From contig NC_134029.1 in NCBI RefSeq assembly GCF_964204645.1, positions 7,272,001-7,336,000 on the forward strand: a stretch of DNA of 64,000 nt. The letters are read 5' to 3'. This document shows positions 23,003 through 57,766 of this stretch, in pieces. The notes beneath the pieces were generated by a model. It was given only the letters and a program-made list of their open reading frames with translations, ran no database searches and was not told the origin of the DNA. Each line of letters opens with the position of its first letter. Positions within the stretch are counted from its first letter, which is position 1. Origin of the DNA: Tubulanus polymorphus. Taxonomy: Eukaryota > Nemertea > Palaeonemertea > Tubulaniformes > Tubulanidae. The position numbers and the translations under genes were made by a program.

Positions 23003-24159
23003 GCAATAATTTTATTTTAGATCCCGGTCTGCATCCCTGAACGGATGAATCATTTTTCCAACGTAAATCAGTAAATGATTAGGTGGCAAACATCAAGAAT
23101 TTGCTAATAACAGTGGTCGCAACGTGTCAGAGGCTGTAGGACTGTTACTTGATAGTGACTTGCTCGTAGTAGCTTCGTGACTCCGATGTACAATATCCCT
23201 TTACCCAGATTCTCACATCCAAAATTATATTTGGTTGATAAGTTTTTCTTGAAGTCTCTACGATCGGAGGGCTCTCATATGCTTCCCGAGTGAATATTCC
23301 CAATTTTGTATTCATACTTAATGCCATCGCGAGGTTGAGTGTGTGGGTTGAGTGTTTGTGCCGGTGTAAGAGCCAAATGTCAGAGAATCGCTTTGCTAAT
23401 GTGCTCAGTCGTCTAACTAAACTAGTTATTTTGGTTTAAGAATTGATATTCTACTAATCATTGCCTTCGCCATTGCATCTCATAACATCTTCATTGGAAT
23501 TGACAGCGAAGGCAACGTAGATGTTCTTAAATATTTTAGTTTTTCCGGCCAATGATATTATTATAGTTACGTATGGCAGTAGGAAATGTTGTGGTGATTG
23601 ACTAGACGACGCACAGAAAAAGACACATGGTTGACTATTTCGATGCTTGGGGTTTTTCTAAGGTGTCTTCTTCTTGAAAAAGGTGAATGTAGTTACTGCT
23701 GACGGGATGGCTATCAAACAAACGCACCTATTGCAATAAGTAGCAACTGGCCGTCCGCGATACTATCGTACTTCTACTTCTTCCAGGCAAAAACTTCTCC
23801 CTCATTATGTGACAAATATCAAACTCGAAGGCCTAACTAACTAATTGGACAAGTAACGAAATCTCTGTCGTCGAATATAACCAGTGGATTCCAAACGAAT
23901 TTTGAAGAAATAACAATTTATTGGCTGTATAGGCCGTATAAACAAACAAATATATGAGACTCAGGCGGAGGTATTGGTCGTTACGAATCACATTCAGAGT
24001 ATATACACGATCGAAGTGGATATTAATTTCTTCGAACAGCATTGCAAATGAATAATCTGCGAAATCCGCGACGTAAATATCTAGCAAATTTTCTCATTTT
24101 TCCTACAAATAGAGAATATAATATAAGTAAATTGTGAGTTAGAATGACAAATATAAATA

Positions 24160-25643
24160 TTACAATTTCCATGTAACTCCATAAGAAGGGCTGAGAAACT
24201 GAATTTGAATTATGTCAACACCTGAAAAGTCAAATTTTTCATTCTTCAAGTCAGTGAAGCTCTTACCACGAGTTTCTGATTTACTGCGTCGTGTCGTCGG
24301 TTCTTCAGTTTTTGATCTGATACCCATCCCTGGTTTTTTGTTATTCTGCTCTCGTCCATCAAGCGATATTTCATCAATTTCAATTTCTTCCGTAATGACT
24401 ATCTTTTCATCTATTGGTTCTGTAATTATGATAAAACAATAACGCATCTAGCAGCCTGCCATAGACCTGTTTAAAAAGGTTTCCTCAATCTTAGTGTAAA
24501 ACATTTTTTCAGATTTCTTACCATTAAAACCGATGAACCCGTTGCCAGTAATGTTTAGTTTGGTTTCACATGTGGGCGGTATAACCGCTACAATCGGTTT
24601 AACTTGTACTTCGATATCATGTCTTTTGGTGCAATTTCTTTCGTCTGCATCAATCGATGATTTACCATCTTTGGATTCGGTGACATGAATTTCGGCTTTT
24701 ATCTCACGAGGCAGTGAATTCTCACTCACTGGTTTGTGTTTAGCTAAATGCTTTTCCACGTCTAGCTTTTCTTCGGAATAGCGTTTAAGTTGCACAGCTC
24801 CCATTCTGTTCAGTTTGGCAACGTCTCGTTGAGCTGCAGCCGATGTCAATTTTCTTTTATTTCCTGCAGCTTGGTGATCATTCGACTTGTCTAAAACAGA
24901 AAAAAAACAGGAACATCCAACCCTGTTTCTATCGTTCAACTATTTGCATCATACTTTGTCACGTTCAAACTTACCATCGACCATCACGGATGCCTGGCCC
25001 CACTGGCAGAAGTAAATTCCCGCCGATTTTACAAATCGATTAGCTCTCGGCTCCCACTTTATATCTCCATTTTCACTCACAACCGCCAGTTTGTATTCAG
25101 TTCCCAGTTGTTGTTCCGTCAGGTGACCTTCCCACCAGTTACTCTCGGGGATTCTCTGAAGAAATGTGCCATCGCTCCAACCGACGGTTTCGCCGAACAT
25201 TTTAACCGTTTCGCCCGGGGATGTTTCATAATGAGTCAGTATCACGGCAAACCTCTGACGGATGGATAGCCAGAACAATTTTGTAATACCTATACCTATA
25301 ATAGCATAGGAATTTTAGGCTATCGTATGATTAAAGTAGGTTATAGTTGTTTTAGTTGAAAATTCATTTATTCAATTTGAAAACGGATTTTCCATATTTA
25401 TATATATGTTACCTGGAATTGTTCTTATGTTTTCCGCAGAGTAGAATTTGCCATTGAGGCAGAAAACGTTTTCGTTTTCGGAATCTGAAAAATGAAGATG
25501 AATTTTGTAAAACTTACATTTATCTAATTATGGGAATCAACTTCTGTAAAGGTTATGCTTTTACCATATTTTGGCGTCGTCTCGACGCTCGATCTCAACA
25601 CCCAATCAACAAAATTAGATACCATTTCGTCGGAATTTTCCAT
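24160..25643 (-). CDS. CBM20-like domain protein, array copy 1
   Basis: Exons 5' to 3': 25643-25565, 25484-25413, 25289-24975, 24890-24522, 24419-24160. All four introns are phase 1 with GT-AG borders, giving 364 aa. Residues about 64-137 resemble a carbohydrate-binding module 20 (starch/glycogen-binding) domain: FAVILTHYETSPGETV, a GE..GW turn, NWWEGHL, GTEYKLAVV, then WEPRANRF with the typical WEP..NR. Residues 157-364 are charged, Lys/Glu-rich and probably disordered. No signal peptide or membrane segment is seen, so a cytosolic protein is likely. CBM20 occurs in laforin, STBD1 and GPCPD1, but the rest matches none of them, so the function is unknown beyond likely glucan binding. A minus-strand AATAAA at 23917-23922 lies 238 bp past the stop. 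Confidence 0.75.
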
Positions 25644-25892
25644 TTTGTCGTAAAATAACAATTGCAAGCAAAAGCGCGCGTGTAAAAGCGATTTCACGTG
25701 TAGTGAAAACTGATGCTAACACAGCAACGCGGCAACAGCTACCTAGCAACTGATTCGTGACATACATCATTACGACGTAACCAACCACGGAAATTACCGA
25801 CAGCTGCCGGGAACCAGCGTATATTTCTCAATTACTAACATTAAACAAATTGACGGTTTAAGATTATTTATAAATTATTATTTTTATTTTAG
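25644..25892 (-). promoter_or_regulatory. 5' flank/promoter region of the array gene (copy 1; repeated in each unit)
   Basis: About 250 bp separates the ATG from the next unit's start, so the core promoter must lie here. Visible words are CACGTG (E-box) about 50 bp before the ATG, two GTTGC half-sites and GGTTACGTCGTAA, a CRE-like palindrome around ACGTCGT. No TATA box was recognised. Assignment as promoter rests on position only. Confidence 0.35.
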
Positions 25893-27031
25893 ATCCCGGT
25901 CTACAGTCTCTGAACGGATGAATCATTTTTCCAACGTAAATCAGTAAATGATTAGGTGGCAAACATCAAGAATTTGCTAATAACAGTGGTCGCAACGTGT
26001 CAGAGGCTGTGGTAGGACTGTTACTTGATAGTGACTTGCTCGTAGTAGCTTCGTGACTCCGATGTACAATATCCCTTTATCCAGATTCTCACATCCAAAA
26101 TTATATTTGGTTGATAAGTTTTTCTTGAAGTCTCTACGATCGGAGGGCTCTCATGTGCTTCCCGAGTGAATATTCCCAATTTTGTATTCATACTTAATGC
26201 CATCGCGAGGTTGAGTGTGTGGGTTGAGTGTTTGTGCCGGTGTAAGAGCCAAATGTCAGAGAATTGCTTTGCTAATGTGCTCAGTCGTCTAACTAGACTA
26301 TATTTTGGTTTAAGAATTGATATTCTACTAATCATAGCCTTCGTCTTTGCATCTCATAACATCTTCATTGGAATTGACAGCGAAGGCAACGTAGATGTTC
26401 TTAAATATTTTAGTTTTTCCGGCCAATGATATTATTATAGTTACGTATGGCAGTAGGAAATGTTGTGGTGATTGACTTGACGACGCACAGAAAAAGAAAC
26501 ATGGTTGACTATTTCGATGCTTGGGGTTTTTCAAAGGTGTCTTCTTCTTAAAGGTGAATGTAGTTACTGCTGACGGGATGGCTATCAAACAAACGCACCT
26601 ATTGCAATAAGTAGCAACTGGCCGTCCGCGATACTATCGTACTTCTACTTCTTCCAGGCAAAAACTTCTCCCTCATTATGTGACAAATATCAAACTCGAA
26701 GGCCTAACTAACTAATTGGACAAGTAACGAAATCTCTGTCGTCGAATATAACCAGTGGATTCCAAAAGATTTTTTGAAGAAATAACAATTTATTGGCTGT
26801 ATAGGCCGTATAAACAAACAAATATATGAGACTCAGGCGGAGGTATTGGTCGTTACGAATCACATTCAGAGTATATACACGATCGAAGTGGATATTAATT
26901 TCTTCGAACAGCATTGCAAATGAATAATCTGCGAAATCCGCGACGTAAATATCTAGCAAATTTTCTCATTTTTCCTACAAATAGAGAATATAATATAAGT
27001 AAATCGTGAGTTAGAATGACAAATATAAATA

Positions 27032-28509
27032 TTACAATTTCCATGTAACTCCATAAGAAAGGCTGAGAAACTGAATTTGAATTATGTCAACACCTGAAAA
27101 GTCAAATTTTTCATTCTTCAAGTCAGTGAAGCTCTTACCACGAGTTTCTGATTTACTGCGTCGTGTCGTCGGTTCTTCAGTTTTTGATCTGATACCCATC
27201 CCTGGTTTTTTGTTATTCTGCTCTCGTCCATCAAGCGATATTTCATCAATTTCAATTTCTTCCGTAATGACTATCTTTTCATCTATTGGTTCTGTAATTA
27301 TGATAAAACAATAACGCATCTAGCAGCCTGCCATAGACCTGTTTAAAAAGGTTTCCTCAATCTTAGTGTAAAACATTTTTTTCAGATTTCTTACCATTAA
27401 AACCGATGAACCCGTTGCCAGTAATGTTTAGTTTGGTTTCACATGTGGGCGGTATAACCGCTACAATCGGTTTAACTTGTACTTCGATATCATGTCTTTT
27501 GGTGCAATTTCTTTCGTCTGCATCAATCGATGATTTACCATCTTTGGATTTGGTGACATGAATTTCGGCTTTTATCTCACGAGGCAGTGAATTCTCACTC
27601 ACTGGTTTGTGTTTAGCTAAATGCTTTTCCACGTCTAGCTTTTCTTCGGAATAGCGTTTAAGTTGCACAGCTCCCATTCTGTTCAGTTTGGCAACGTCTC
27701 GTTGAGCTGCAGCCGATGTCAATTTTCTCTTATTTCCTGCAGCTTGGTGATCATTCGACTTGTCTAAAAAAAAAAAACAGGAACATCCAACCCTGTTTCT
27801 ATCGTTCAACTATTTGCATCATACTTTGTCACGTTCAAACTTACCATCGACCATCACGGATGCCTGGCCCCACTGGCAGAAGTAAATTCCCGCCGATTTT
27901 ACAAATCGATTAGCTCTCGGCTCCCACTTTATATCTCCATTTTCACTCACAACCGCCAGTTTGTATTCAGTTCCCAGTTGTTGTTCCGTCAGGTGACCTT
28001 CCCACCAGTTACTCTCGGGGATTCTCTGAAGAAATGTGCCATCGCTCCAACCGACGGTTTCGCCGAACATTTTAACCGTTTCGCCCGGGGATGTTTCATA
28101 ATGAGTCAGTATCACGGCAGACCTCTGACGGATTGATAGCCAGAACAATTTTGTAATACCTATAAGATAACATAGGAATTTCAGGCTATCGTATGATTAA
28201 AGTAGGTTATAGTTGTTTTAGTTGAAAATTCATTTATTCAATTTGAAAACGGATTTTCCATATTTATATATATGTTACCTGGAATTGTTCTTATGTTTTC
28301 CGCAGAGTAGAATTTGCCATTGAGGCAGAAAACGTTTTCGTTTTCGGAATCTGATGAATGAAGAAAAATTTTGTAAAACTTACATTTATCTAATTATGGG
28401 AATCAACTTCTGTAAAGGTTATGCTTTTACCATATTTTGGCGTCGTCTCGACGCTCGATCCCAACACCCGATCAACAAAATTAGATACCATTTCGTCGGA
28501 ATTTTCCAT
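27032..28509 (-). CDS. CBM20-like domain protein, array copy 2
   Basis: Same five-exon structure as copy 1; the last two exons are 27763-27395 and 27291-27032. All splice borders and frames are intact. It belongs to the B type: the exon-3 acceptor lacks the 6-bp duplication of copy 1, and exon 1 reads VDRVLGSS. The CBM20 part begins RSAVILT instead of RFAVILT. The tract before exon 4 is a pure poly-T on the coding strand, which keeps a usable acceptor (CTAAAAA on the plus strand). Confidence 0.72.
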
Positions 28510-29902
28510 TTTGTCGTAAAATAACAATTGCAAGCAAAAGCGCGCGTGTAAAAGCGATTTCACGTGTAGTGAAAACTGATGCTAACACAGCAACGCGGCA
28601 ACAGCTACCTAGCAACTGATTCGTGACATACATCATTACGACGTAACCAACCACGGAAATTACCGACAGCTGCCGGGAACCAGCGTATATTTCTCAATTA
28701 CTAACATTAAACAAATTGACGGTTTAAGATTATTTCTAAATTATTATTTTTATTTTAGATCCCGGTCTGCAGTCTCTGAACGGATGAATCATTTTTCCAA
28801 CCTAAATCAGTAAATGATTAGGTGTCAAACATCAAGAATTTGCTAATAACAGTGGTCGCAACGTGTCAGAGGCTGTGGTAGGACTGTTACTTGATAGTGA
28901 CTTGCTTGTAGTAGCTTCGTGACTCCGATGTACAATATCCCTTTATCCAGATTCTCACATCCAAAATTATATTTGGTTGATAAGTTTTTCTTGAAGTCTC
29001 TACGATCGGAGGGCTCTCATGTGCTTCCCGAGTGAATATTCCCAATTTTGTATTCATACTTAATGCCATCGCGAGGTTGAGTGTGTGGGTTGAGTGTTTG
29101 TGCCGGTGTAAGAGCCAAATGTCAGAGAATTGCTTTGCTAATGTGCACAGTCGTCTAACTAAACTAGTTATCTTGGTTTAAGAATTGATATTCTACTAAT
29201 CATAGCCTTCGCCTTTGCATCTCATAACATCTTCATTGGAATTGACAGCGAAGGCAACGTAGATGTTCTTTAATATTTTAGTTTTTCCGGCCAATGATAT
29301 TATTATAGTTACGTATGGCAGTAGGAAATGTTGTGGTGATTGACTAGACGACGCACAGAAAAAGACACATGGTTGACTATTTCGATGCTTGGGGTTTTTC
29401 TAAGGTGTCTTCTTCTTGAAAAAGGTGAATGTAGTTACTGCTGACGGGATGGCTATCAAACAAACGCACCTATTGCATTAAGTAGCAACTGGCAGTCCGC
29501 GATACTATCGTACTTCTACTTCTTCCAGGCAAAAACTTCTCCCTCATTATGTGACAAATATCAAACTCGAAGGCCTAACTAACTAATTGGACAAGTAACG
29601 AAATCTCTGTCGTCGAATATAACCAGTGGATTCCAAAAGATTTTTTGAAGAAATAACAATTTATTGGCTGTATAGGCCGTATAAACAAACAAATATATGA
29701 GACTCAGGCGGAGGTATTGGTCGTTACGAATCACATTCAGAGTATATACACGATCGAAGTGGATATTAATTTCTTCGAACAGCATTGCAAATGAATAATC
29801 TGCGAAATCCGCGACGTAAATATCTAGCAAATTTTCTCATTTTTCCTACAAATAGAGAATATAATATAAGTAAATCGTGAGTTAGAATGACAAATATAAA
29901 TA

Positions 29903-31385
29903 TTACAATTTCCATGTAACTCCATAAGAAAGGCTGAGAAACTGAATTTGAATTATGTCAACACCTGAAAAGTCAAATTTTTCATTCTTCAAGTCAGTGA
30001 AGCTCTTACCACGAGTTTCTGATTTACTGCGTCGTGTCGTCGGTTCTTCAGTTTTTGATCTGATACCCATCCCTGGTTTTTTGTTATTCTGCTCTCGTCC
30101 ATCAAGCGATATTTCATCAATTTCAATTTCTTCCGTAATGACTATCTTTTCATCTATTGGTTCTGTAATTATGATAAAACAATAACGCATCTAGCAGCCT
30201 GCCATAGACCTGTTTAAAAAGGTTTCCTCAATCTTAGTGTAAAACATTTTTTTCAGATTTCTTACCATTAAAACCGATGAACCCGTTGCCAGTAATGTTT
30301 AGTTTGGTTTCACATGTGGGCGGTATAACCGCTACAATCGGTTTAACTTGTACTTCGATATCATGTCTTTTGGTGCAATTTCTTTCGTCTGCATCAATCG
30401 ATGATTTACCATCTTTGGATTTGGTGACATGAATTTCGGCTTTTATCTCACGAGGCAGTGAATTCTCACTCACTGGTTTGTGTTTAGCTAAATGCTTTTC
30501 CACGTCTAGCTTTTCTTCGGAATAGCGTTTAAGTTGCACAGCTCCCATTCTGTTCAGTTTGGCAACGTCTCGTTGAGCTGCAGCCGATGTCAATTTTCTT
30601 TTATTTCCTGCAGCTTGGTGATCATTCGACTTGTCTAAAACAGAAAAAAAACAGGAACATCCAACCCTGTTTCTATCGTTCAACTATTTGCATCATACTT
30701 TGTCACGTTCAAACTTACCATCGACCATCACGGATGCCTGGCCCCACTGGCAGAAGTAAATTCCCGCCGATTTTACAAATCGATTAGCTCTCGGCTCCCA
30801 CTTTATATCTCCATTTTCACTCACAACCGCCAGTTTGTATTCAGTTCCCAGTTGTTGTTCCGTCAGGTGACCTTCCCACCAGTTACTCTCGGGGATTCTC
30901 TGAAGAAATGTGCCATCGCTCCAACCGACGGTTTCGCCGAACATTTTAACCGTTTCGCCCGGGGATGTTTCATAATGAGTCAGTATCACGGCAGACCTCT
31001 GACGGATTGATAGCCAGAACAATTTTGTAATACCTATAAGATAGCATAGGAATTTCAGGCTATCGTATGATTAAAGTAGGTTATAGTTGTTTTAGTTGAA
31101 AATTCATTTATTCAATTTGAAAACGGATTTTCCATATTTATATATATATGTTACCTGGAATTGTTCTTATGTTTTCCGCAGAGTAGAATTTGCCATTGAG
31201 GCAGAAAACGTTTTCGTTTTCGGAATCTGAAAAATGAAGAAAAATTTTGTAAAACTTACATTTATCTAATTATGGGAATCAACTTCTGTAAAGGTTATGC
31301 TTTTACCATATTTTGGCGTCGTCTCGACGCTCGATCTCAACACCCGATCAACAAAATTAGATACCATTTCGTCGGAATTTTCCAT
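29903..31385 (-). CDS. CBM20-like domain protein, array copy 3
   Basis: Complete five-exon copy with intact CBM20 core (NWWEGHL, GTEYKL, WEPRANR). Changes from copy 1 include F64S and E to K in the VTESKDG segment of exon 4 (VTKSKDG). The 3' flank shares private words with copy 6 (CTTGCTTGTAG; AACCTAAATCAG), linking the two as one subtype. Confidence 0.72.
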
Positions 31386-32756
31386 TTTGTCGTAAAATAA
31401 CAATTGCAAGCAAAAGCGCGCGTGTAAAAGCGATTTCACGTGTAGTGAAAACTGATGCTAACACAGCAACGCGGCAACAGCTACCTAGCAACTGATTCGT
31501 GGCATACATCATTACGACGTAACCAACCACGGAAATTACCGACAGCTGCCGGGAACCAGCGTATATTTCTCAATTACTAACATTAAACAAATTGACGGTT
31601 TAAGATTATTTCTAAATTATTATTTTTATTTTAGATCCCGGTCTGCAGTCTCTGAACGGATGAATCATTTTTCCAACGTAAATCAGTAAATGATTAGGTG
31701 TCAAACATCAAGAATTTGCTAATAACAGTGGTCGCAACGTGTCAGAGGCTGTAGGATTGTTACTTGATAGTGACTTGCTCGTAGTAGCTTCGTGACTCCG
31801 ATGTACAATATCCCTTTATCCAGATTCTCACATACAAAATTATATTTGGTTGATAAGTTTTTCTTGAAGTCTCTACGATCGGAGGGCTCTCATGTGCTTC
31901 CCGAGTGAATATTCCCAATTTTGTATTCATACTTAATGCCATCGCGAGGTTGAGTGTTTGTGCCGGTGTAAGAGCCAAATGTCAGAGAATTGCTTTGCTA
32001 ATGTGCTCAGTCGTCTAACTAAACTAGTTATCTTAGTTTAAGAATTGATATTCTACTAATCATAGCCTTCGCCTTTGCATCTCATAACATCTTCATTGGA
32101 ATTGACAGCGAAGGCAACGTAGATGTTCTTTAATATTTTAGTTTTTCCGGCCAATGATATTATTATAGTTACGTATGGCAGTAGGAAATGTTGTGGTGAT
32201 TGACTAGACGACGCACAGAAAAAGACACATGGTTGACTATTTCGATGCTTGGGGTTTTTCTAAGGTGTCTTCTTCTTGAAAAAGGTGAATGTAGTTACTG
32301 CTGACGGGATGGCTATCAAACAAACGCACCTATTGCAATAAGTAGCAACTGGCCGTCCGCGATACTATCGTACTTCTACTTCTTCCAGGCAAAAACTTCT
32401 CCCTCATTATGTGACAAATATCAAACTCGAAGGCCTAACTAACTAATTGGACAAGTAACGAAATCTCTGTCGTCGAATATAACCAGTGGATTCCAAACGA
32501 ATTTTGAAGAAATAACAATTTATTGGCTGTATAGGCCGTATAAACAAACAAATATATGAGACTCAGGCGGAGGTATTGGTCGTTACGAATCACATTCAGA
32601 GTATATACACGATCGAAGTGGATATTAATTTCTTCGAACAGCATTGCAAATGAATAATCTGCGAAATCCGCGACGTAAATATCTAGCAAATTTTCTCATT
32701 TTTCCTACAAATAGAGAATATAAGTAAATCGTGAGTTAGAATGACAAATATAAATA

Positions 32757-34241
32757 TTACAATTTCCATGTAACTCCATAAGAAGGGCTGAGAAACTGAA
32801 TTTGAATTATGTCAACACCTGAAAAGTCAAATTTTTCATTCTTCAAGTCAGTGAAGCTCTTACCACGAGTTTCTGATTTACTGCGTCGTGTCGTCGGTTC
32901 TTCAGTTTTTGATCTGATACCCATCCCTGGTTTTTTGTTATTCTGCTCTCGTCCATCAAGCGATATTTCATCAATTTCAATTTCTTCCGTAATGACTATC
33001 TTTTCATCTATTGGTTCTGTAATTATGATAAAACAATAACGCATCTAGCAGCCTGCCATAGACCTGTTTAAAAAGGTTTCCTCAATCTTAGTGTAAAACA
33101 TTTTTTCAGATTTCTTACCATTAAAACCGATGAACCCGTTGCCAGTAATGTTTAGTTTGGTTTCACATGTGGGCGGTATAACCGCTACAATCGGTTTAAC
33201 TTGTACTTCGATATCATGTCTTTTGGTGCAATTTCTTTCGTCTGCATCAATCGATGATTTACCATCTTTGGATTTGGTGACATGAATTTCGGCTTTTATC
33301 TCACGAGGCAGTGAATTCTCACTCACTGGTTTGTGTTTAGCTAAATGCTTTTCCACGTCTAGCTTTTCTTCGGAATAGCGTTTAAGTTGCACAGCTCCCA
33401 TTCTGTTCAGTTTGGCAACGTCTCGTTGAGCTGCAGCCGATGTCAATTTTCTTTTATTTCCTGCAGCTTGGTGATCATTCGACTTGTCTAAAACAGAAAA
33501 AAAAACAGGAACATCCAACCCTGTTTCTATCGTTCAACTATTTGCATCATACTTTGTCACGTTCAAACTTACCATCGACCATCACGGATGCCTGGCCCCA
33601 CTGGCAGAAGTAAATTCCCGCCGATTTTACAAATCGATTAGCTCTCGGCTCCCACTTTATATCTCCATTTTCACTCACAACCGCCAGTTTGTATTCAGTT
33701 CCCAGTTGTTGTTCCGTCAGGTGACCTTCCCACCAGTTACTCTCGGGGATTCTCTGAAGAAATGTGCCATCGCTCCAACCGACGGTTTCGCCGAACATTT
33801 TAACCGTTTCGCCCGGGGATGTTTCATAATGAGTCAGTATCACGGCAAACCTCTGACGGATGGATAGCCAGAACAATTTTGTAATACCTATACCTATAAT
33901 AGCATAGGAATTTTAGGCTATCGTATGATTAAAGTAGGTTATAGTTGTTTTAGTTGAAAATTCATTTATTCAATTTGAAAACGGATTTTCCATATTTATA
34001 TATATGTTACCTGGAATTGTTCTTATGTTTTCCGCAGAGTAGAATTTGCCATTGAGGCAGAAAACGTTTTCGTTTTCGGAATCTGAAAAATGAAGATGAA
34101 TTTTGTAAAACTTACATTTATCTAATTATGGGAATCAACTTCTGTAAAGGTTATGCTTTTACCATATTTTGGCGTCGTCTCGACGCTCGATCTCAACACC
34201 CAATCAACAAAATTAGATACCATTTCGTCGGAATTTTCCAT
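32757..34241 (-). CDS. CBM20-like domain protein, array copy 4
   Basis: Complete copy. It carries the A-type 6-bp duplication at the exon-3 acceptor (about 33888-33899) and RFAVILT, as in copies 1 and 7, but VTKSKDG in exon 4 as in copies 2 and 3. Its 3' flank has a 10-bp deletion near 31950 and a TTATCTT word otherwise seen in copies 3 and 6, so this copy looks mosaic. Confidence 0.72.
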
Positions 34242-35624
34242 TTTGTCGTAAAATAACAATTGCAAGCAAAAGCGCGCGTGTAAAAGCGATTTCACGTGTA
34301 GTGAAAACTGATGCTAACACAGCAACGCGGCAACAGCTACCTAGCAACTGATTCGTGACATACATCATTACGACGTAACCAACCACGGAAATTACCGACA
34401 GCTGCCGGGAACCAGCGTATATTTCTCAATTACTAACATTAAACAAATTGACGGTTTAAGATTATTTATAAATTATTATTTTTATTTTAGATCCCGGTCT
34501 ACAGTCTCTGAACGGATGAATCATTTTTCCAACGTAAATCAGTAAATGATTAGGTGGCAAACATCAAGAATTTGCTAATAACAGTGGTCGCAACGTGTCA
34601 GAGGCTGTGGTAGGACTGTTACTTGATAGTGACTTGCTCGTAGTAGCTTCGTGACTCCGATGTACAATATCCCTTTATCCAGATTCTCACATCCAAAATT
34701 ATATTTGGTTGATAAGTTTTTCTTGAAGTCTCTACGATCGGAGGGCTCTCATGTGCTTCCCGAGTGAATATTCCCAATTTTGTATTCATACTTAATGCCA
34801 TCGCGAGGTTGAGTGTGTGGGTTGAGTGTTTGTGCCGGTGTAAGAGCCAAATGTCAGAGAATTGCTTTGCTAATGTGCTCAGTCGTCTAACTAGACTATA
34901 TTTTGGTTTAAGAATTGATATTCTACTAATCATAGCCTTCGTCTTTGCATCTCATAACATCTTCATTGGAATTGACAGCGAAGGCAACGTAGATGTTCTT
35001 AAATATTTTAGTTTTTCCGGCCAATGATATTATTATAGTTACGTATGGCAGTAGGAAATGTTGTGGTGATTGACTTGATGACGCACAGAAAAAGAAACAT
35101 GGTTGACTATTTCGATGCTTGGGGTTTTTCAAAGGTGTCTTCTTCTTAAAGGTGAATGTAGTTACTGCTGACGGGATGGCTATCAAACAAACGCACCTAT
35201 TGCAATAAGTAGCAACTGGCCGTCCGCGATACTATCGTACTTCTACTTCTTCCAGGCAAAAACTTCTCCCTCATTATGTGACAAATATCAAACTCGAAGG
35301 CCTAACTAACTAACTGGACAAGTAACGAAATCTCTGTCGTCGGATATAACCAGTGGATTCCAAAAGATTTTTTGAAGAAATAACAATTTATTGGCTGTGT
35401 AGGCCGTATAAACAAACAAATATATGAGACTCAGGCGGAGGTATTGGTCGTTACGAATCACATTCAGAGTATATACACGATCGAAGTGGATATTAATTTC
35501 TTCGAACAGCATTGCAAATGAATAATCTGCGAAATCCGCGACGTAAATATCTAGCAAATTTTCTCATTTTTCCTACAAATAGAAAATATAAGTAAATCGT
35601 GAGTTAGAATGACAAATATAAATA

Positions 35625-41132: not shown

Positions 41133-41199
41133 ACAAGAGAAATCCCACAATAAGTTCAGCCAAAACGAGAAACTTGAATAGAAGAGTTATATATATTTG

Positions 41200-45068: not shown

Positions 45069-45071
45069 CTA

Positions 45072-46081: not shown

Positions 46082-46188
46082 CAAATATATATAACTCTTC
46101 TATTCAAGTTTCTCGTTTTGGCTGAACTTATTGTGGGATTTCTCTTGTTATCTTCTTACACGGATATTGTGTATCTTCTCGTCTCATC

Positions 46189-48579
46189 ATGCTTCCCACG
46201 GATCGGAAAATCGTTCTTCAATTCTTCTTTATAACCTTTCCACATCTCATCTCTTGCTTTCGGACTTATGAAAAGCGGTACATCCAAGCGAAAACAGCAA
46301 AAACCAAAGTGAAATTTCTGCAAGACTGCCTCAGCGAAAAGGTGATTCCTCGCTCCATGAACTGGATCAAGAAATTCGATTCGCATTCACCATTTCCGAA
46401 GCAAGCAAATTCTCATCTAAGATCAGCGATCGGCAAAGCTAAAGATGATTGCGATTATCAATTCTTCAGATCTCGGCAAGCGCACAATTACCTCAGATCT
46501 CAACTTCCGGACCCGCATCTCTTCAACTTACTCAGCTCTATCGTTATGGACTCCGGTAACCGTCATTTTTCTGACAATTCTTGTAAACTTAATTCGAAAC
46601 TTCAACAGCTCATTATTCTTAGTCCTTGGACTAAGTTTAGCAACACGGACATTATTGTGAATCTCTCCTCCGTTTCGCTCACGTTGTATCAACTTCAACT
46701 CCTTGGCTTCGGTTTGAACTTTTCTTTACCTCACCGCAAGACGAACATCCTGGATTTTATGTCGGAATTAGAACAGCGTAAGACATCTTCCTCAAATTTT
46801 GACTACAATTTTATGTTTATGAACTTACAAACTATTTGTGATAACCTCCGTTATAATTACTCAGAATTTTTACCTCGTCGTTTCAGGATTGCCCTCTCTG
46901 AACTCAGAAAACTAGACTCTGTTCGTATTTCAAAAGCTGATAAAGGTGGCAAAATTGTTCTCTTAGATATCTGTGATTATAATCAAAAAATGTTCTCCCT
47001 TCTCGGTGACTCTAATGTTTATAAACCATTGAAATCCAACCCTCTCTCACGTATGCAAGCTTCATTCAATAAGAATCTGTCTGGTATTATCCAACGGTTT
47101 CCGGACTCTAAAGATATTCTTTCGAAATTTCAATCACGTCTACCCTCCCTACCTTATATCTATGGGCTCCCCAAAATCCATAAGAAAGATGTTCCGCTGC
47201 GCCCCATTGTATCTAATTGTAATTCGCCCTCTTATCGTTTATCCAAATTTCTGGCTAAACAATTATCACCGGCTCTTGGTTCTTTCTCCGCCTCGCATTT
47301 ACGACACAACCAAGATTTATTAGAATGGTTAAAAAACATTATTCCTGGTAACGATAGATTCATTTCGTTTGATGCTAGTTCTCTTTTTACCAATGTTCCT
47401 CTTAGGCCTACCCTTGATTTTCTTAAACGGAAACTTCCTTCGTTGGATTTCAATTTTGACATTCCTACTGATTGTATTATCGAATTAATTGAACTTTGCA
47501 CCCAGAACTCCTTTTTTAGTTTCAACAATTCATATTTCGAACAGGTTTTTGGCATGGCTATGGGGAACCCGCTTAGTCCCATTCTAGCAAATCTTTTCCT
47601 GGAACACGTTGAAACCGAATTACTACCTCTTTACACAGATACTCTCCCTAAACTTTGGTTACGATACGTTGATGATATTCTTGCCCTTATACCTTTTGAC
47701 TTTGATATTGATCAATTTCTCACATTTATTAACTCTTTTTATCCCTCCTTGAACTTCACATTTGAATTGGAAGTTGATGGGAAAATCCCTTTCCTTGATG
47801 TTTGTATACACAATTGTTTGTCTTGTCTAAAATTCTCGGTTTATAGGAAACCTACCCACTCTGGAACATACCTACATTATTTCTCCTTCACCGCTCATAA
47901 CATTAAACTTAGTGTTGCCCAAAGCTTATTCCTTCGCGCATTAAGGATTTGTGACCCCCTTTTCTTGGATGATGAACTAACCCAGATCAAGACCTCTCTT
48001 AATAAATTAGCTTACCCCGACGACATTTTGAATAAAGCTCTCTTGAGAGCCCGTCGTTCACATTTCAGTCACTCTCAAGGGACCCGCGCGCGTAAACAGC
48101 CTATTATTGTACCTTTTGTTCCTTTTCTGGAAAAATCTAAAACTCCCCTCCATCTCTTAAACAAACAACTCATTTTTACTTATAACAACAAACTTAGTCG
48201 TAATCTTACTCATAACTCCCCCAAAATTGAACCCCTGAACATTGGTGTATATAAAATTCCCTGTAAAGTTTGTAACAAAATATATATCGGCGAAACCGGA
48301 CGCGATTTACACAAGCGCATTCGTGAACATAAGAATGATGTAAAGAATTTTAAGCCTGAAAGCGGTGTTGCTAATCACGTATACGAAACCAGCCACAATT
48401 TTGATTTTGAAAAAGCCTCCATAATTTTCCCCTGTTCAGAAAAGATTAAACGACACATTATGGAATCGGCCCTGATTATTGAAAACTTGGAAAATTGTGT
48501 TAATTTGAATAACGGTTTTTCCCCCCACAACATTTTGATCTCCAAATTTCTCGCTTCTCTTGTACCCCCGTTATACTAA
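46189..48579 (+). CDS. Penelope-like element polyprotein: reverse transcriptase plus GIY-YIG endonuclease
   Basis: The plus-orientation intact 796-aa ORF. The ATG lies 40 bp after the unit start at 46149, directly behind the truncated copy, so transcription could start in the pLTR of that copy. YVDD is encoded at 47665-47676, GVY at 48244-48252 and YIG at 48283-48291. The same amino-acid sequence as the minus-arm ORF argues for very recent duplication or gene conversion between the arms. After the stop come about 425 bp of 3' region, including a hammerhead-like motif. Confidence 0.9.
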   Translation: MLPTDRKIVLQFFFITFPHLISCFRTYEKRYIQAKTAKTKVKFLQDCLSEKVIPRSMNWIKKFDSHSPFPKQANSHLRSAIGKAKDDCDYQFFRSRQAHNYLRSQLPDPHLFNLLSSIVMDSGNRHFSDNSCKLNSKLQQLIILSPWTKFSNTDIIVNLSSVSLTLYQLQLLGFGLNFSLPHRKTNILDFMSELEQRKTSSSNFDYNFMFMNLQTICDNLRYNYSEFLPRRFRIALSELRKLDSVRISKADKGGKIVLLDICDYNQKMFSLLGDSNVYKPLKSNPLSRMQASFNKNLSGIIQRFPDSKDILSKFQSRLPSLPYIYGLPKIHKKDVPLRPIVSNCNSPSYRLSKFLAKQLSPALGSFSASHLRHNQDLLEWLKNIIPGNDRFISFDASSLFTNVPLRPTLDFLKRKLPSLDFNFDIPTDCIIELIELCTQNSFFSFNNSYFEQVFGMAMGNPLSPILANLFLEHVETELLPLYTDTLPKLWLRYVDDILALIPFDFDIDQFLTFINSFYPSLNFTFELEVDGKIPFLDVCIHNCLSCLKFSVYRKPTHSGTYLHYFSFTAHNIKLSVAQSLFLRALRICDPLFLDDELTQIKTSLNKLAYPDDILNKALLRARRSHFSHSQGTRARKQPIIVPFVPFLEKSKTPLHLLNKQLIFTYNNKLSRNLTHNSPKIEPLNIGVYKIPCKVCNKIYIGETGRDLHKRIREHKNDVKNFKPESGVANHVYETSHNFDFEKASIIFPCSEKIKRHIMESALIIENLENCVNLNNGFSPHNILISKFLASLVPPLY

Positions 48580-48897
48580 TTCCCTCATTGTTTTGCCTTT
48601 ATCATAGTTTGCTTGTTTCCACTCACTCACTGATTATCGCCTTTCATGTTCCTTCTCTTTGTTTTATTTGATTACCCCTTAGCTTGTCCTCCCGTTTTAA
48701 TCACTTTAGCTTGTGTCTTTGTTTATTAATTACTTTAATCTACATTGCCCCTAGTTTGCCTTGCTTACTTTAGCATTGTTTTCTAGTTGTTATGTCATTA
48801 CTTTAATCTATTCCCCTTTCAATATTTTAATCACTCACTCTGCTTCTATTGTTTTGGTCTTGTATAAATATCTTGTAATATTCTCCTGTACTCAGTA

Positions 48898-48937
48898 CGC
48901 CTGATGATGGCTAATAGTCTTTAGCCGAAACGTTGCG
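48898..48937 (+). ncRNA. Hammerhead-ribozyme-like motif (plus full unit)
   Basis: Same motif in the 3' region of the full unit: CTGATGA 48901-48907, GAAAC 48927-48931, predicted cleavage after 48934. The distance to the 46078 site is 2,856 bp, the exact unit length. Confidence 0.5.
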
Positions 48938-49042
48938 CAAATATATATAACTCTTCTATTCAAGTTTCTCGTTTTGGCTGAACTTATTGTGGGATTTCTC
49001 TTGTTATCTTCTTACACGGATATTGTGTATCTTCTCGTCTCA

Positions 49043-49056
49043 TGATTCGTGACATA
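49043..49056. repeat. 14-bp target-site duplication (right) of the Penelope-like insertion
   Basis: Second copy of TGATTCGTGACATA. It is followed by the resumed 5' flank of array copy 6 (ACGACGTAACC...), as in all other units. Confidence 0.85.
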
Positions 49057-50322
49057 CATCATCACGACGTAACCAACCACGGAAATTACCGACAGCTGCC
49101 GGGAACCAGCGTATATTTCTCAATTACTAACATTAAACAAATTGACGGTTTAAGATTATTTATAAATTATTATTTTTATTTTAGATCCCGGTCTACAGTC
49201 TCTGAACGGATGAATCATTTTTCCAACGTAAATCAGTAAATGATTAGGTGGCAAACATCAAGAATTTGCTAATAACAGTGGTCGCAACGTGTCAGAGGCT
49301 GTGGTAGGACTGTTACTTGATAGTGACTTGCTCGTAGTAGCTTCGTGACTCCGATGTACAATATCCCTTTATCCAGATTCTCACATCCAAAATTATATTT
49401 GGTTGATAAGTTTTTCTTGAAGTCTCTACGATCGGAGGGCTCTCATGTGCTTCCCGAGTGAATATTCCCAATTTTGTATTCATACTTAATGCCATCGCGA
49501 GGTTGAGTGTGTGGGTTGAGTGTTTGTGCCGGTGTAAGAGCCAAATGTCAGAGAATCGCTTTGCTAATGTGCTCAGTCGTCTAACTAAACTAGTTATTTT
49601 GGTTTAAGAATTGATATTCTACTAATCATTGCCTTCGCCATTGCATCTCATAACATCTTCATTGGAATTGACAGCGAAGGCAACGTAGATGTTCTTAAAT
49701 ATTTTAGTTTTTCCGGCCAATGATATTATTATAGTTACGTATGGCAGTAGGAAATGTTGTGGTGATTGACTAGACGACGCACAGAAAAAGACACATGGTT
49801 GACTATTTCGATGCTTGGGGTTTTTCTAAGGTGTCTTCTTCTTGAAAAAGGTGAATGTAGTTACTGCTGACGGGATGGCTATCAAACAAACGCACCTATT
49901 GCAATAAGTAGCAACTGGCCGTCCGCGATACTATCGTACTTCTACTTCTTCCAGGCAAAAACTTCTCCCTCATTATGTGACAAATATCAAACTCGAAGGC
50001 CTAACTAACTAATTGGACAAGTAACGAAATCTCTGTCGTCGAATATAACCAGTGGATTCCAAACGAATTTTGAAGAAATAACAATTTATTGGCTGTATAG
50101 GCCGTATAAACAAACAAATATATGAGACTCAGGCGGAGGTATTGGTCGTTACGAATCACATTCAGAGTATATACACGATCGAAGTGGATATTAATTTCTT
50201 CGAACAGCATTGCAAATGAATAATCTGCGAAATCCGCGACGTAAATATCTAGCAAATTTTCTCATTTTTCCTACAAATAGAGAATATAAGTAAATTGTGA
50301 GTTAGAATGACAAATATAAATA

Positions 50323-51806
50323 TTACAATTTCCATGTAACTCCATAAGAAGGGCTGAGAAACTGAATTTGAATTATGTCAACACCTGAAAAGTCAAATTT
50401 TTCATTCTTCAAGTCAGTGAAGCTCTTACCACGAGTTTCTGATTTACTGCGTCGTGTCGTCGGTTCTTCAGTTTTTGATCTGATACCCATCCCTGGTTTT
50501 TTGTTATTCTGCTCTCGTCCATCAAGCGATATTTCATCAATTTCAATTTCTTCCGTAATGACTATCTTTTCATCTATTGGTTCTGTAATTATGATAAAAC
50601 AATAACGCATCTAGCAGCCTGCCATAGACCTGTTTAAAAAGGTTTCCTCAATCTTAGTGTAAAACATTTTTTCAGATTTCTTACCATTAAAACCGATGAA
50701 CCCGTTGCCAGTAATGTTTAGTTTGGTTTCACATGTGGGCGGTATAACCGCTACAATCGGTTTAACTTGTACTTCGATATCATGTCTTTTGGTGCAATTT
50801 CTTTCGTCTGCATCAATCGATGATTTACCATCTTTGGATTCGGTGACATGAATTTCGGCTTTTATCTCACGAGGCAGTGAATTCTCACTCACTGGTTTGT
50901 GTTTAGCTAAATGCTTTCCCACGTCTAGCTTTTCTTCGGAATAGCGTTTAAGTTGCACAGCTCCCATTCTGTTCAGTTTGGCAACGTCTCGTTGAGCTGC
51001 AGCCGATGTCAATTTTCTTTTATTTCCTGCAGCTTGGTGATCATTCGACTTGTCTAAAACAGAAAAAAAACAGGAACATCCAACCCTGTTTCTATCGTTC
51101 AACTATTTGCATCATACTTTGTCACGTTCAAACTTACCATCGACCATCACGGATGCCTGGCCCCACTGGCAGAAGTAAATTCCCGCCGATTTTACAAATC
51201 GATTAGCTCTCGGCTCCCACTTTATATCTCCATTTTCACTCACAACCGCCAGTTTGTATTCAGTTCCCAGTTGTTGTTCCGTCAGGTGACCTTCCCACCA
51301 GTTACTCTCGGGGATTCTCTGAAGAAATGTGCCATCGCTCCAACCGACGGTTTCGCCGAACATTTTAACCGTTTCGCCCGGGGATGTTTCATAATGAGTC
51401 AGTATCACGGCAAACCTCTGACGGATGGATAGCCAGAACAATTTTGTAATACCTATACCTATAATAGCATAGGAATTTTAGGCTATCGTATGATTAAAGT
51501 AGGTTATAGTTGTTTTAGTTGAAAATTCATTTATTCAATTTGAAAACGGATTTTCCATATTTATATATATGTTACCTGGAATTGTTCTTATGTTTTCCGC
51601 AGAGTAGAATTTGCCATTGAGGCAGAAAACGTTTTCGTTTTCGGAATCTGAAAAATGAAGATGAATTTTGTAAAACTTACATTTATCTAATTATGGGAAT
51701 CAACTTCTGTAAAGGTTATGCTTTTACCATATTTTGGCGTCGTCTCGACGCTCGATCTCAACACCCAATCAACAAAATTAGATACCATTTCGTCGGAATT
51801 TTCCAT
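50323..51806 (-). CDS. CBM20-like domain protein, array copy 7
   Basis: Complete A-type copy, closest to copy 1: RFAVILT, VTESKDG and the 6-bp acceptor duplication (about 51451-51462). One private change, E to G in exon 4 (KLDVGKH). It is the first copy downstream of the Penelope-like insertion, but its own 5' flank (51807-52055) is intact. Confidence 0.72.
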
Positions 51807-53189
51807 TTTGTCGTAAAATAACAATTGCAAGCAAAAGCGCGCGTGTAAAAGCGATTTCACGTGTAGTGAAAACTGATGCTAACACAGCAACGCGGCAACA
51901 GCTACCTAGCAACTGATTCGTGACATACATCATTACGACGTAACCAACCACGGAAATTACCGACAGCTGCCGGGAACCAGCGTATATTTCTCAATTACTA
52001 ACATTAAACAAATTGACGGTTTAAGATTATTTATAAATTATTATTTTTATTTTAGATCCCGGTCTACAGTCTCTGAACGGATGAATCATTTTTCCAACGT
52101 AAATCAGTAAATGATTAGGTGGCAAACATCAAGAATTTGCTAATAACAGTGGTCGCAACGTGTCAGAGGCTGTGGTAGGACTGTTACTTGATAGTGACTT
52201 GCTCGTAGTAGCTTCGTGACTCCGATGTACAATATCCCTTTATCCAGATTCTCACATCCAAAATTATATTTGGTTGATAAGTTTTTCTTGAAGTCTCTAC
52301 GATCGGAGGGCTCTCATGTGCTTCCCGAGTGAATATTCCCAATTTTGTATTCATACTTAATGCCATCGCGAGGTTGAGTGTGTGGGTTGAGTGTTTGTGC
52401 CGGTGTAAGAGCCAAATGTCAGAGAATTGCTTTGCTAATGTGCTCAGTCGTCTAACTAGACTATATTTTGGTTTAAGAATTGATATTCTACTAATCATAG
52501 CCTTCGTCTTTGCATCTCATAACATCTTCATTGGAATTGACAGCGAAGGCAACGTAGATGTTCTTAAATATTTTAGTTTTTCCGGCCAATGATATTATTA
52601 TAGTTACGTATGGCAGTAGGAAATGTTGTGGTGATTGACTTGACGACGCACAGAAAAAGAAACATGGTTGACTATTTCGATGCTTGGGGTTTTTCAAAGG
52701 TGTCTTCTTCTTAAAGGTGAATGTAGTTACTGCTGACGGGATGGCTATCAAACAAACGCACCTATTGCAATAAGTAGCAACTGGCCGTCCGCGATACTAT
52801 CGTACTTCTACTTCTTCCAGGCAAAAACTTCTCCCTCATTATGTGACAAATATCAAACTCGAAGGCCTAACTAACTAACTGGACAAGTAACGAAATCTCT
52901 GTCGTCGAATATAACCAGTGGATTCCAAAAGATTTTTTGAAGAAATAACAATTTATTGGCTGTATAGGCCGTATAAACAAACAAATATATGAGACTCAGG
53001 CGGAGGTATTGGTCGTTACGAATCACATTCAGAGTATATACACGATCGAAGTGGATATTAATTTCTTCGAACAGCATTGCAAATGAATAATCTGCGAAAT
53101 CCGCGACGTAAATATCTAGCAAATTTTCTCATTTTTCCTACAAATAGAGAATATAAGTAAATCGTGAGTTAGAATGACAAATATAAATA

Positions 53190-54670
53190 TTACAATTTCC
53201 ATGTAACTCCATAAGAAAGGCTGAGAAACTGAATTTGAATTATGTCAACACCTGAAAAGTCAAATTTTTCATTCTTCAAGTCAGTGAAGCTCTTACCACG
53301 AGTTTCTGATTTACTGCGTCCTGTCGTCGGTTCTTCAGTTTTTGATCTGATACCCATCCCTGGTTTTTTGTTATTCTGCTCTCGTCCATCAAGCGATATT
53401 TCATCAATTTCAATTTCTTCCGTAATGACTATCTTTTCATCTATTGGTTCTGTAATTATGATAAAACAATAACGCATCTAGCAGCCTGCCATAGACCTGT
53501 TTAAAAAGGTTTCCTCAATCTTAGTGTAAAACATTTTTTCAGATTTCTTACCATTAAAACCGATGAACCCGTTGCCAGTAATGTTTAGTTTGGTTTCACA
53601 TGTGGGCGGTATAACCGCTACAATCGGTTTAACTTGTACTTCGATATCATGTCTTTTGGTGCAATTTCTTTCGTCTGCATCAATCGATGATTTACCATCT
53701 TTGGATTTGGTGACATGAATTTCGGCTTTTATCTCACGAGGCAGTGAATTCTCACTCACTGGTTTGTGTTTAGCTAAATGCTTTTCCACGTCTAGCTTTT
53801 CTTCGGAATAGCGTTTAAGTTGCACAGCTCCCATTCTGTTCAGTTTGGCAACGTCTCGTTGAGCTGCAGCCGATGTCAATTTTCTTTTATTTCCTGCAGC
53901 TTGGTGATCATTCGACTTGTCTAAAACAGAAAAAAAAACAGGAACATCCAACCCTGTTTCTATCGTTCAACTATTTGCATCATACTTTGTCACGTTCAAA
54001 CTTACCATCGACCATCACGGATGCCTGGCCCCACTGGCAGAAGTAAATTCCCGCCGATTTTACAAATCGATTAGCTCTCGGCTCCCACTTTATATCTCCA
54101 TTTTCACTCACAACCGCCAGTTTGTATTCAGTTCCCAGTTGTTGTTCCGTCAGGTGACCTTCCCACCAGTTACTCTCGGGGATTCTCTGAAGAAATGTGC
54201 CATCGCTCCAACCGACGGTTTCGCCGAACATTTTAACCGTTTCGCCCGGGGATGTTTCATAATGAGTCAGTATCACGGCAGACCTCTGACGGATTGATAG
54301 CCAGAACAATTTTGTAATACCTATAGAATAGCATAGGAATTTTAGGCTATCGTATGATTAAAGTAGGTTATAGTTGTTTTAGTTGAAAATTCATTTATTC
54401 AATTTGAAAACGGATTTTCCATATTTATATATATGTTACCTGGAATTGTTCTTATGTTTTCCGCAGAGTAGAATTTGCCATTGAGGCAGAAAACGTTTTC
54501 GTTTTCGGAATCTGAAAAATGAAGATGAATTTTGTAAAACTTACATTTATCTAATTATGGGAATCAACTTCTGTAAAGGTTATGCTTTTACCATATTTTG
54601 GCGTCGTCTCGACGCTCGATCTCAACACCCGATCAACAAAATTAGATACCATTTCGTCGGAATTTTCCAT
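53190..54670 (-). CDS. CBM20-like domain protein, array copy 8
   Basis: Complete copy. The 3' half (flank and last exon, TTGRSKSE) is B type like copies 2 and 5. The 5' half (exon-4 leader, GAATAGC at the exon-3 acceptor) matches copies 6 and 9. This is a clear mosaic, as expected from unequal crossing-over or gene conversion. The CBM20 core is unchanged. Confidence 0.72.
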
Positions 54671-56057
54671 TTTGTCGTAAAATAACAATTGCAAGCAAAA
54701 GCGCGCGTGTAAAAGCGATTTCACGTGTAGTGAAAACTGATGCTAACACAGCAACGCGGCAACAGCTACCTAGCAACTGATTCGTGACATACATCATCAC
54801 GACGTAACCAACCACGGAAATTACCGACAGCTGCCGGGAACCAGCGTATATTTCTCAATTACTAACATTAAACAAATTGACGGTTTAAGATTATCTATAA
54901 ATTATTATTTTTATTTTAGATCCCGGTCTACAGTCTCTGAACGGATGAATCATTTTTCCAACGTAAATCAGTAAATGATTAGGTGGCAAACATCAAGAAT
55001 TTGCTAATAACAGTGGTCGCAACGTGGGAGAGGCTGTGGTAGGACTGTTACTTGATAGTGACTTGCTCGTAGTAGCTTCGTGACTCCGATGTACAATAGC
55101 CCTTTATCCAGATTCTCACATCCAAAATTATATTTGGTTGATAAGTTTTTCTTGAAGTCTCTACGATCGGAGGGCTCTCATGTGCTTCCCGAGTGAATAT
55201 TCCCAATTTTGTATTCATACTTAATGCCATCGCGAGGTTGAGTGTGTGGGTTGAGTGTTTGTGCCGGTGTAAGAGCCAAATGTCAGAGAATTGCTTTGCT
55301 AATGTGCTCAGTCGTCTAACTAGACTAGTTATTTTGGTTTAAGAATTGATATTCTACTAATCATAGCCTTCGTCTTTGCATCTCATAACATCTTCATTGG
55401 AATTGACAGCGAAGGCAACGTAGATGTTCTTTAATATTTTAGTTTTTCCGGCCAATGATATTATTATAGTTACGTATGGCAGTAGGAAATGTTGTGGTGA
55501 TTGACTAGACGACGCACAGAAAAAGACACATGGTTGACTATTTCGATGCTTGGGGTTTTTCTAAGGTGTCTTCTTCTTGAAAAAGGTGAATGTAGTTACT
55601 GCTGACGGGATGGCTATCAAACAAACGCACCTATTGCAATAAGTAGCAACTGGCCGTCCGCGATACTATCGTACTTCTACTTCTTCCAGGCAAAAACTTC
55701 TCCCTCATTATGTGACAAATATCAAACTCGAAGGCCTAACTAACTAATTGGACAAGTAACGAAATCTCTGTCGTCGAATATAACCAGTGGATTCCAAACG
55801 AATTTTGAAGAAATAACAATTTATTGGCTGTATAGGCCGTATAAACAAACAAATATATGAGACTCAGGCGGAGGTATTGGTCGTTACGAATCACATTCAG
55901 AGTATATACACGATCGAAGTGGATATTAATTTCTTCGAACAGCATTGCAAATGAATAATCTGCGAAATCCGCGACGTAAATATCTAGCAAATTTTCTCAT
56001 TTTTCCTACAAATAGAGAATATAAGTAAATCGTGAGTTAGAATGACAAATATAAATA

Positions 56058-57539
56058 TTACAATTTCCATGTAACTCCATAAGAAGGGCTGAGAAACTGA
56101 ATTTGAATTATGTCAACACCTGAAAAGTCAAATTTTTCATTCTTCAAGTCAGTGAAGCTCTTACCACGAGTTTCTGATTTACTGCGTCGTGTCGTCGGTT
56201 CTTCAGTTTTTGATCTGATACCCATCCCTGGTTTTTTGTTATTCTGCTCTCGTCCATCAAGCGATATTTCATCAATTTCAATTTCTTCCGTAATGACTAT
56301 CTTTTTATCTATTGGTTCTGTAATTATGATAAAACAATAACGCATCTAGCAGCCTGCCATAGACCTGTTTAAAAAGGTTTCCTCAATCTTAGTGTAAAAC
56401 ATTTTTTCAGATTTCTTACCATTAAAACCGATGAACCCGTTGCCAGTAATGTTTAGTTTGGTTTCACATGTGGGCGGTATAACCGCTACAATCGGTTTAA
56501 CTTGTACTTCGATATCATGTCTTTTGGTGCAATTTCTTTCGTCTGCATCAATCGATGATTTACCATCTTTGGATTCGGTGACATGAATTTCGGCTTTTAT
56601 CTCACGAGGCAGTGAATTCTCACTCACTGGTTTGTGTTTAGCTAAATGCTTTTCCACGTCTAGCTTTTCTTCGGAATAGCGTTTAAGTTGCACAGCTCCC
56701 ATTCTGTTCAGTTTGGCAACGTCTCGTTGAGCTGCAGCCGATGTCAATTTTCTTTTATTTCCTGCAGCTTGGTGATCATTCGACTTGTCTAAAACAGAAA
56801 AAAAACAGGAACATCCAACCCTGTTTCTATCGTTCAACTATTTGCATCATACTTTGTCACGTTCAAACTTACCATCGACCATCACGGATGCCTGGCCCCA
56901 CTGGCAGAAGTAAATTCCCGCCGATTTTACAAATCGATTAGCTCTCGGCTCCGACTTTATATCTCCATTTTCACTCACAACCGCCAGTTTGTATTCAGTT
57001 CCCAGTTGTTGTTCCGTCAGGTGACCTTCCCACCAGTTACTCTCGGGGATTCTCTGAAGAAATGTGCCATCGCTCCAACCGACGGTTTCGCCGAACATTT
57101 TAACCGTTTCGCCCGGGGATGTTTCATAATGAGTCAGTATCACGGCAGACCTCTGACGGATTGATAGCCAGAACAATTTTGTAATACCTATAGAATAGCA
57201 TAGGAATTTCAGACTATCGTATGATTAAAGTAGGTTATAGTTGTTTTAGTTGAAAATTCATTTATTCAATTTGAAAACGGATTTTCCATATTTATATATA
57301 TGTTACCTGGAATTGTCCTTATGTTTTCCGCAGAGTAGAATTTGCCATTGAGGCAGAAAACGTTTTCGTTTTCGGAATCTGAAAAATGAAGAGAAAAATT
57401 TTGTAAAACTTACATTTATCTTATTATAGGAATCAACTTCTGTAAAGGTTATGCTTTTACCATATTTTGGCGTCGTCTCGACGCTCGATTTCAACACCCG
57501 ATCAACAAAATTAGATACCATTTAGTCGGAATTTTCCAT
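56058..57539 (-). pseudogene. CBM20-like domain protein, array copy 9, probably decaying
   Basis: Same exon layout, but codon 6 is GAA to TAA (plus strand TTA at 57522-57524), five residues after the usual start. An in-frame ATG follows directly (57519-57521), so a product lacking only the first six residues could still be made. In addition, the Trp of the conserved WEP motif is Ser (IKSEP), removing a residue expected to contact glucan in CBM20 domains. A further change in the last exon is E to K (PIDKKIV). It is the outermost copy, where the array ends. Confidence 0.65.
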
Positions 57540-57766
57540 TTTGTCGTAAAATAACAATTGCAAGCAAAAGCGCGCGTGTAAAAGCGATTTCACGTGTAGT
57601 GAAAACTGATGCTAACACAGCAACGCGGCAACAGCTACCTAGCAACTGATTCGTGACATACATCATTACGACGTAACCAACCACGGAAATTACCGACAGC
57701 TGCCGGGAACCAGCGTATATTTCTCAGTTACTAACATTAAACAAATTGACGGTTTAAGATTATTTC

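Follow-up and report, generated by a model that had tools for sequence, protein, structure and literature searches.

Nine tandem copies of a gene for a protein with a CBM20-like domain lie in a 64,000-nucleotide stretch of the genome of the nemertean Tubulanus polymorphus (contig NC_134029.1, here C5, positions 7272001-7336000); this whole stretch is the window, and coordinates without a contig are positions in it. A single member of a genome-wide family has recently been amplified here; the amplification itself is ordinary, and the architecture of the family is the more interesting part. The predicted array protein begins with a conserved N-terminus, followed by a divergent CBM20-like domain and a charged linker that changes fast, and ends in a cationic exon that is conserved. 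We give roughly an even chance to the reading that the amplification is recent and nearly neutral, and that the amplified protein tethers glycogen to a membrane, as STBD1 does, with its parts in the reverse order.

The array is built of nine direct (head-to-tail) units of ~2.87 kb with their genes on the minus strand, and the units are 97.8-99.5% identical to unit 2; for 2.8-kb repeats at ~98% identity, chance is ruled out. An earlier note, made from the letters of this DNA, had described nine head-to-tail units and eight fully open frames. Both descriptions hold, the exception among the frames being unit 9, and the array coordinates given there were off by a few bases only (edges at ~23007 and ~57767). 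The same note gave each gene its own 5' flank, which holds only in part, since each unit has no more than ~270 bp before its ATG and the flank of unit 6 is broken by insertions. The parts of the array are:

23007-57767, minus strand: whole array, nine 2.87-kb units
23037-25914, minus strand: unit 1, open; exons 25565-25643, 25413-25484, 24975-25289, 24522-24890, 24222-24419 and 24023-24102
25910-28780, minus strand: unit 2, open; gene 26895-28509
28776-31656, minus strand: unit 3, open; gene 29766-31385
31652-34512, minus strand: unit 4, open; gene 32625-34241
34508-37372, minus strand: unit 5, open; gene 35493-37101
37368-40046, minus strand: main part of unit 6, open; gene 38358-39970; 5' flank interrupted 76 bp before the ATG
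41082-41132: short piece of unit 6 between its two insertions
49043-49206, minus strand: remaining upstream region of unit 6, beyond insertion 2
49202-52077, minus strand: unit 7, open; gene 50191-51806; 3 differences from unit 1
52073-54941, minus strand: unit 8, open; gene 53058-54670
54937-57767, minus strand: unit 9; gene 55926-57539; stop at codon 6, W129S

When a 601-bp piece of the unit was searched against the genome (267.8 Mb in 77 contigs), 14 matches were obtained: the nine units at 97-100%, a pair at 91% around 19.4 Mb of C5, and three on C3 at 71-73%. It is very unlikely that the assembly has inflated the array and that fewer than nine copies are real. The copy number is that of the assembly, and units 1 and 7 differ at only 3 of ~2,870 bases, which would suit such an inflation; against it, all nine assembled units are distinct (3 to 40 pairwise differences), one of them bears insertions flanked by target repeats, and a period-3 structure is seen in the order of the copies. 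Within the 3' flank of a unit, positions 23187-23402 also match C3:19841562-19841779 at 71%. Searches of the genome for general markers gave three weak 7tm_6 matches and none for an exact SL1 leader, COX1, Chitin_bind_4 or Col_cuticle_N, although misses of this sort are no proof of absence. Among the TTAGGG runs listed, a short one is located ~5.3 kb from the end of C1, which speaks weakly against the TTAGG type of arthropods and the TTAGGC type of nematodes.

The gene had been proposed to be complete with five exons. Those five exons do have AG/GT boundaries in all nine units, but a sixth exon had been missed, which was spotted by reading the downstream open reading frames (ORFs) of 14 loci (13 dispersed family loci and one CBM20 gene): exon 5 is spliced at 24222 in unit 1 and not read to its stop, and exon 6 lies downstream of it. 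In the same way, the long charged tail attributed to the protein is present, while its conserved cationic last exon had been overlooked. The two exons on which most of what follows depends are, in unit 1:

24975-25289, minus strand: exon 3, CBM20-like domain, residues 51-154 of 370
24023-24102, minus strand: exon 6, newly found, cationic C-terminus; identical in 9 of 9 units, AATAAA ~100 nt downstream

Exon 6 reads GKMRKFARYLRRGFRRLFICNAVRRN in the window, following the acceptor TTTGTAG, and encodes a cationic C-terminus that begins GKMRKFARYLRRGFRRLFIC. We regard it as part of the gene because five features agree. Its 80 bases do not vary among the nine units; it joins in phase, for a corrected coding sequence (CDS) of 1113 nt and 370 aa; and each unit has an AATAAA poly-A signal ~100 nt 3' of it. 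The ratio of nonsynonymous to synonymous rates (dN/dS) against L002, a dispersed paralogue (loci elsewhere in the genome carry L numbers), is 0.17 over residues 344-370, which include one exon 5 codon. Finally, when the 24-residue version of L001/L002 was searched against the genome (E up to 10), it gave 19 exon 6-like matches, each lying no more than 1.5 kb downstream of one of the family's CBM20-like domains. The gene of unit 9 departs from the others, with a stop at codon 6 that is followed directly by an ATG at codon 7, and with the substitution W129S. By eye, G[FIL][KN]G/GT is the end of many tail exons, in the same phase, and in L003 (~1540-2690) the two tail exons seem to be duplicated within the paralogue.

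Protein searches of the genome place a CBM20-like domain of this family at no fewer than 24 loci, a lower bound: the nine of the array, two near 19.4 Mb of C5, three on C3 that are similar to that pair, three of the L009 type, of which two are on C5 and one is on C4, six that belong to a C3 type, and a broken locus at C5:18.37 Mb. This count leaves out a weaker match at C3:23.50 Mb (E 0.41) as well as one to a CBM20 gene at C1:21.27 Mb (E 0.21). Other members of the family also sit as close pairs or triplets, and L005 has an in-frame TGA. Diverged satellite-like repeats, with many overlapping matches, lie directly upstream of the near paralogues, at 1-1500 in L001 and 1-1560 in L002.

The profile search of exon 3 against Pfam CBM_20 (PF00686) gave 20.0 bits (E 6e-4), a score below the gathering cut-off of 23.3 bits; the five-exon protein of 364 aa scored 16.3 bits, and CBM_20 was its sole Pfam match at E up to 10. 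Six other loci of this genome pass the CBM_20 cut-off. We compared two profiles: one of ten domains chosen from the 24 of the family (near-duplicates, the broken locus and eight array units excluded), the other of five CBM20 domains drawn from those six loci without L018. In hhalign, the ten-member family profile matched the five-member CBM20 profile of the same genome at 96.5% (E 9.7e-10). Ten of the 15 profile members have a CBM_20 match at E up to 10, with 2.9e-16 as the best value. The combined 15-member profile, searched against the PDB, matches the solved domain of human STBD1 (8x8k, E 2.6e-9); since this profile contains accepted CBM20 genes, the match supports the group and not the array by itself.

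The residues point in the same direction. W88, K117, W129, E130 and N134, which we take to be the site-1 glucan contacts of CBM20, are kept in the array, except that unit 9 has W129S. The accepted CBM20 genes vary at these places too: in L015 the K position is occupied by E, and in L019 the positions of W129 and N134 are occupied by Q and T. In STBD1, W293, the counterpart of laforin W32, is required for amylose binding (PMC4076837); W88 of the array is, in our own reading, the counterpart of W293. Profile comparison and residue conservation together support homology of the exon 3 domain to CBM20. The label CBM20-like, rather than CBM20, is the one we use for this predicted domain, because the Pfam score is below threshold while profile comparison and contact residues agree, and because some accepted CBM20 domains deviate as well. 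The earlier note's term CBM20-like can thus be kept, on the strength of the profile-profile match and the contact residues, with the Pfam score as the part that does not fit.

With regard to selection, the lineage was under constraint, and the array copies show none that is detectable yet. Against L002, dN/dS is 0.18 for the N-terminus and 0.20 for the domain, 0.71 for the linker, and as low in exon 6 as given above. Within the array, 12 variable codons are nonsynonymous, including a nonsense one, and 4 are synonymous, where 3.52:1 would be expected without constraint; these 16 sites give little power. The six-exon figures replace those of a previous five-exon run (14 nonsynonymous to 4 synonymous, linker 0.73). 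A contrast of the McDonald-Kreitman type was not significant, with p 0.42 for the whole protein and 0.13 for the N-terminus plus domain, the counts being those of the five-exon model with unit means rounded to whole numbers.

The earlier note had offered dosage selection as one reason for the amplification, in that the array would have been amplified and kept since more of the protein is useful, for instance in glycogen storage. In line with this, eight of the nine copies are still open, exon 6 is invariant over the nine units, and close pairs or triplets recur among other family members. Open frames, however, need no selection when divergence is this low, and the comparison of copies goes the other way: the ratio among them is the neutral one, with no sign of constraint, a nonsense codon and the loss of a key tryptophan mark one copy, and the 5' flank of another is disrupted. 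We consider dosage selection improbable, and the additional copies would be nearly neutral so far, rather than retained for dosage.

The structure of the array fits expansion by unequal exchange better, because of its single common junction and its period-3 relatedness. The same breakpoint is found at all eight internal junctions, which by eye bear a short AT-rich stretch that is not seen at either edge of the array; the common breakpoint and the confinement of this stretch to the junctions indicate one founding tandem duplication. Among all 280 three-way partitions of the copies, the best is that into the classes 1-4-7, 2-5-8 and 3-6-9 (1296 of 362,880 orders), while periods of 2 and 4 in copy relatedness gave nothing. 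Class 1-4-7 is a clade in the trees (96/97 with the outgroup, 83/95 without). An exchange of three-unit blocks with conversion afterwards would fit the period of 3. Homology to the 19.4-Mb pair stops at unit position 2826, ~226 bp before the ATG and adjoining the upstream edge of the array; the ancestral moving segment thus held little upstream DNA. We conclude that the array began with a single founding tandem duplication and that unequal exchange came after it, probably partly in blocks of three units. The alternative term of the earlier note, satellite-like expansion, fits only in part, because each unit is a whole gene of a lineage that was under purifying selection. Compared with tandemly arrayed families that evolve by unequal crossing over, the array is alike in its one junction, its near-identical units and its block-wise relatedness; nothing in it is unusual, and the three-unit period is a detail. 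It is also a clean example of a young coding array: its founding junction, the exchange of blocks, the insertions and the onset of decay are all still legible.

As for what the protein might do, we propose that the CBM20-like head would bind alpha-glucan (glycogen), that the cationic, Cys-containing tail would bind a membrane or an acidic partner, and that the flexible charged linker would connect the two; the whole would tether glycogen to a membrane, by analogy with vertebrate STBD1 in reversed domain order. In the array, the exon 6 segment has a net charge of +10, and its helical hydrophobic moment is high, a value reached by 23 of 2000 shuffles; the net charge is +8 to +10 across the array and six dispersed paralogues tested. 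The moment was reached by 10 of 2000 shuffles in L001 and 13 in L003, and the same test on two CBM20 genes gave 57 for L015 and 169 for L019.

In STBD1 the hydrophobic membrane anchor is N-terminal and the CBM20 domain C-terminal. The proposed likeness to the array protein lies in the combination of CBM20, a long linker and a membrane-targeting end; the difference is that the array protein has its CBM20-like domain first (residues 51-154 of 370) and its cationic exon last. By eye, the N-terminus of the array protein, MENSDEMVSNFVDWVLRSSVETTPKY, is not a hydrophobic anchor of the STBD1 type, and no transmembrane segment is evident in the protein. Mouse Stbd1 is described as a transmembrane protein of the endoplasmic reticulum (ER) in PMC5358331, and an N-terminal deletion mutant of STBD1 and the interaction-motif residues W203/V206 appear in PMC4076837. 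With laforin, for which a CBM20-type domain at the N-terminus is described in PMC2714694, and with other animal CBM20 proteins, the array protein shares the N-terminal position of the domain; unlike laforin, it shows neither a phosphatase nor any other enzyme domain in Pfam (five-exon version, E up to 10). Among the open-licence paper titles listed, none described an animal CBM20 expansion or such an array.

A different role for the tail has also to be considered, in which it binds nucleic acid or protein or is antimicrobial-like, a cationic C-terminal effector for which the CBM20-like domain is a scaffold or protein-interaction module. The net charge of the tail and the strong constraint on exon 6 would suit this role, as would the C3-type loci, which have lost glucan-contact residues yet keep exon 6. 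No signal peptide is seen by eye at the N-terminus, though, all five contact residues considered are retained in the array protein, and its domain is constrained as much as exon 6; we believe such an effector to be unlikely.

Several results weigh against the tether reading and its parts. Besides the sub-threshold Pfam score, the PF00686 search of the genome had none of the 24 family loci among the matches listed; neither the ten-member family profile nor exon 3 alone found a CBM20 chain in the PDB (one chance-level match each, E 0.35 and E 1.3), and a single-sequence AlphaFold model of exon 3 alone, made with a view to the beta-sandwich fold, had a pLDDT of 42.6, too low to be of use. W129 and N134 are lacking in the alignment of L006, L007 and L011, and the contact W and N are also absent from both L008 domains and from L012, as read from the sequences; with six C3-type loci without them, sugar binding is not a family-wide trait. 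In the tail, the putative exon 5 donor, CAG/GTGTTG, is weak, and five of the 24 family loci have no exon 6 match (L004, L006, L009, L010 and L014), of which L006, L009 and L010, but not L004, have a similar segment by eye in their downstream ORFs. The hydrophobic moment is not significant in L006, L007, L009 and L012 (169-236 of 2000 shuffles), so that the step from helix to membrane is weak, and the cationic segment could instead bind RNA, calmodulin or protein. On the side of the amplification, the neutral ratio argues against selection on each copy, and not against selection on the total number; class 2-5-8 formed a clade in 61% of 200 bootstrap trees when the outgroup was left out and in 4% when it was included, and class 3-6-9 in 0%.

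If the tether reading is true, more than one architecture for tethering glycogen to membranes has arisen, and the family supplies natural variants that have the sugar site and others that lack it. We speculate further, and with clearly less confidence, that the lineage evolved more than 20 mirror-image STBD1-like proteins that organize glycogen on membranes, some of which lost sugar binding and one of which is amplifying now. Among the CBM20 genes of this genome, L016 (2140-7633) has a CBM20 exon followed by a frame of 1,674 codons with internal repeats (EPESILPLGPLEDIRELIAR...) and a hydrophobic end, CLCIIIVCLVALVPVIGFIFKGR, which suggests, the joining of the exons being putative, that a membrane end may recur among these genes. 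A motif of the SFTDL type at 24222-24270, the end of exon 5 in unit 1 just before exon 6, recurs in several relatives; it fits what we take to be the loose pattern of Atg8-interacting motifs and is a candidate only, short motifs arising by chance.

Two insertions split unit 6, the nearer one 76 bp upstream of the ATG of copy 6 (39970):

40047-41081, plus strand: insertion 1, element fragment of 1,035 bp; 6-bp target repeat TGCTAA on both sides
41133-49042, no strand assigned: insertion 2, Penelope-like element; 13-bp target repeat TGATTCGTGACAT

Insertion 1, putatively LINE-like by resemblance only, has no reverse transcriptase (RT) match in Pfam. In insertion 2, one of the 817-aa frames matches RVT_1 and GIY-YIG in Pfam. 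The Penelope-like element is a near-perfect palindrome, with arms at 41130-45068 and 45069-49007 (3,939 nt each, 99.9% alike), no spacer, and internal repeats of 1.1 kb; it may represent a genuine inverted dimer or have been created by the assembly. Beside the array, at 58585-60597 on the minus strand, lies an open frame of 670 aa that matches DUF229 (E 7e-134).

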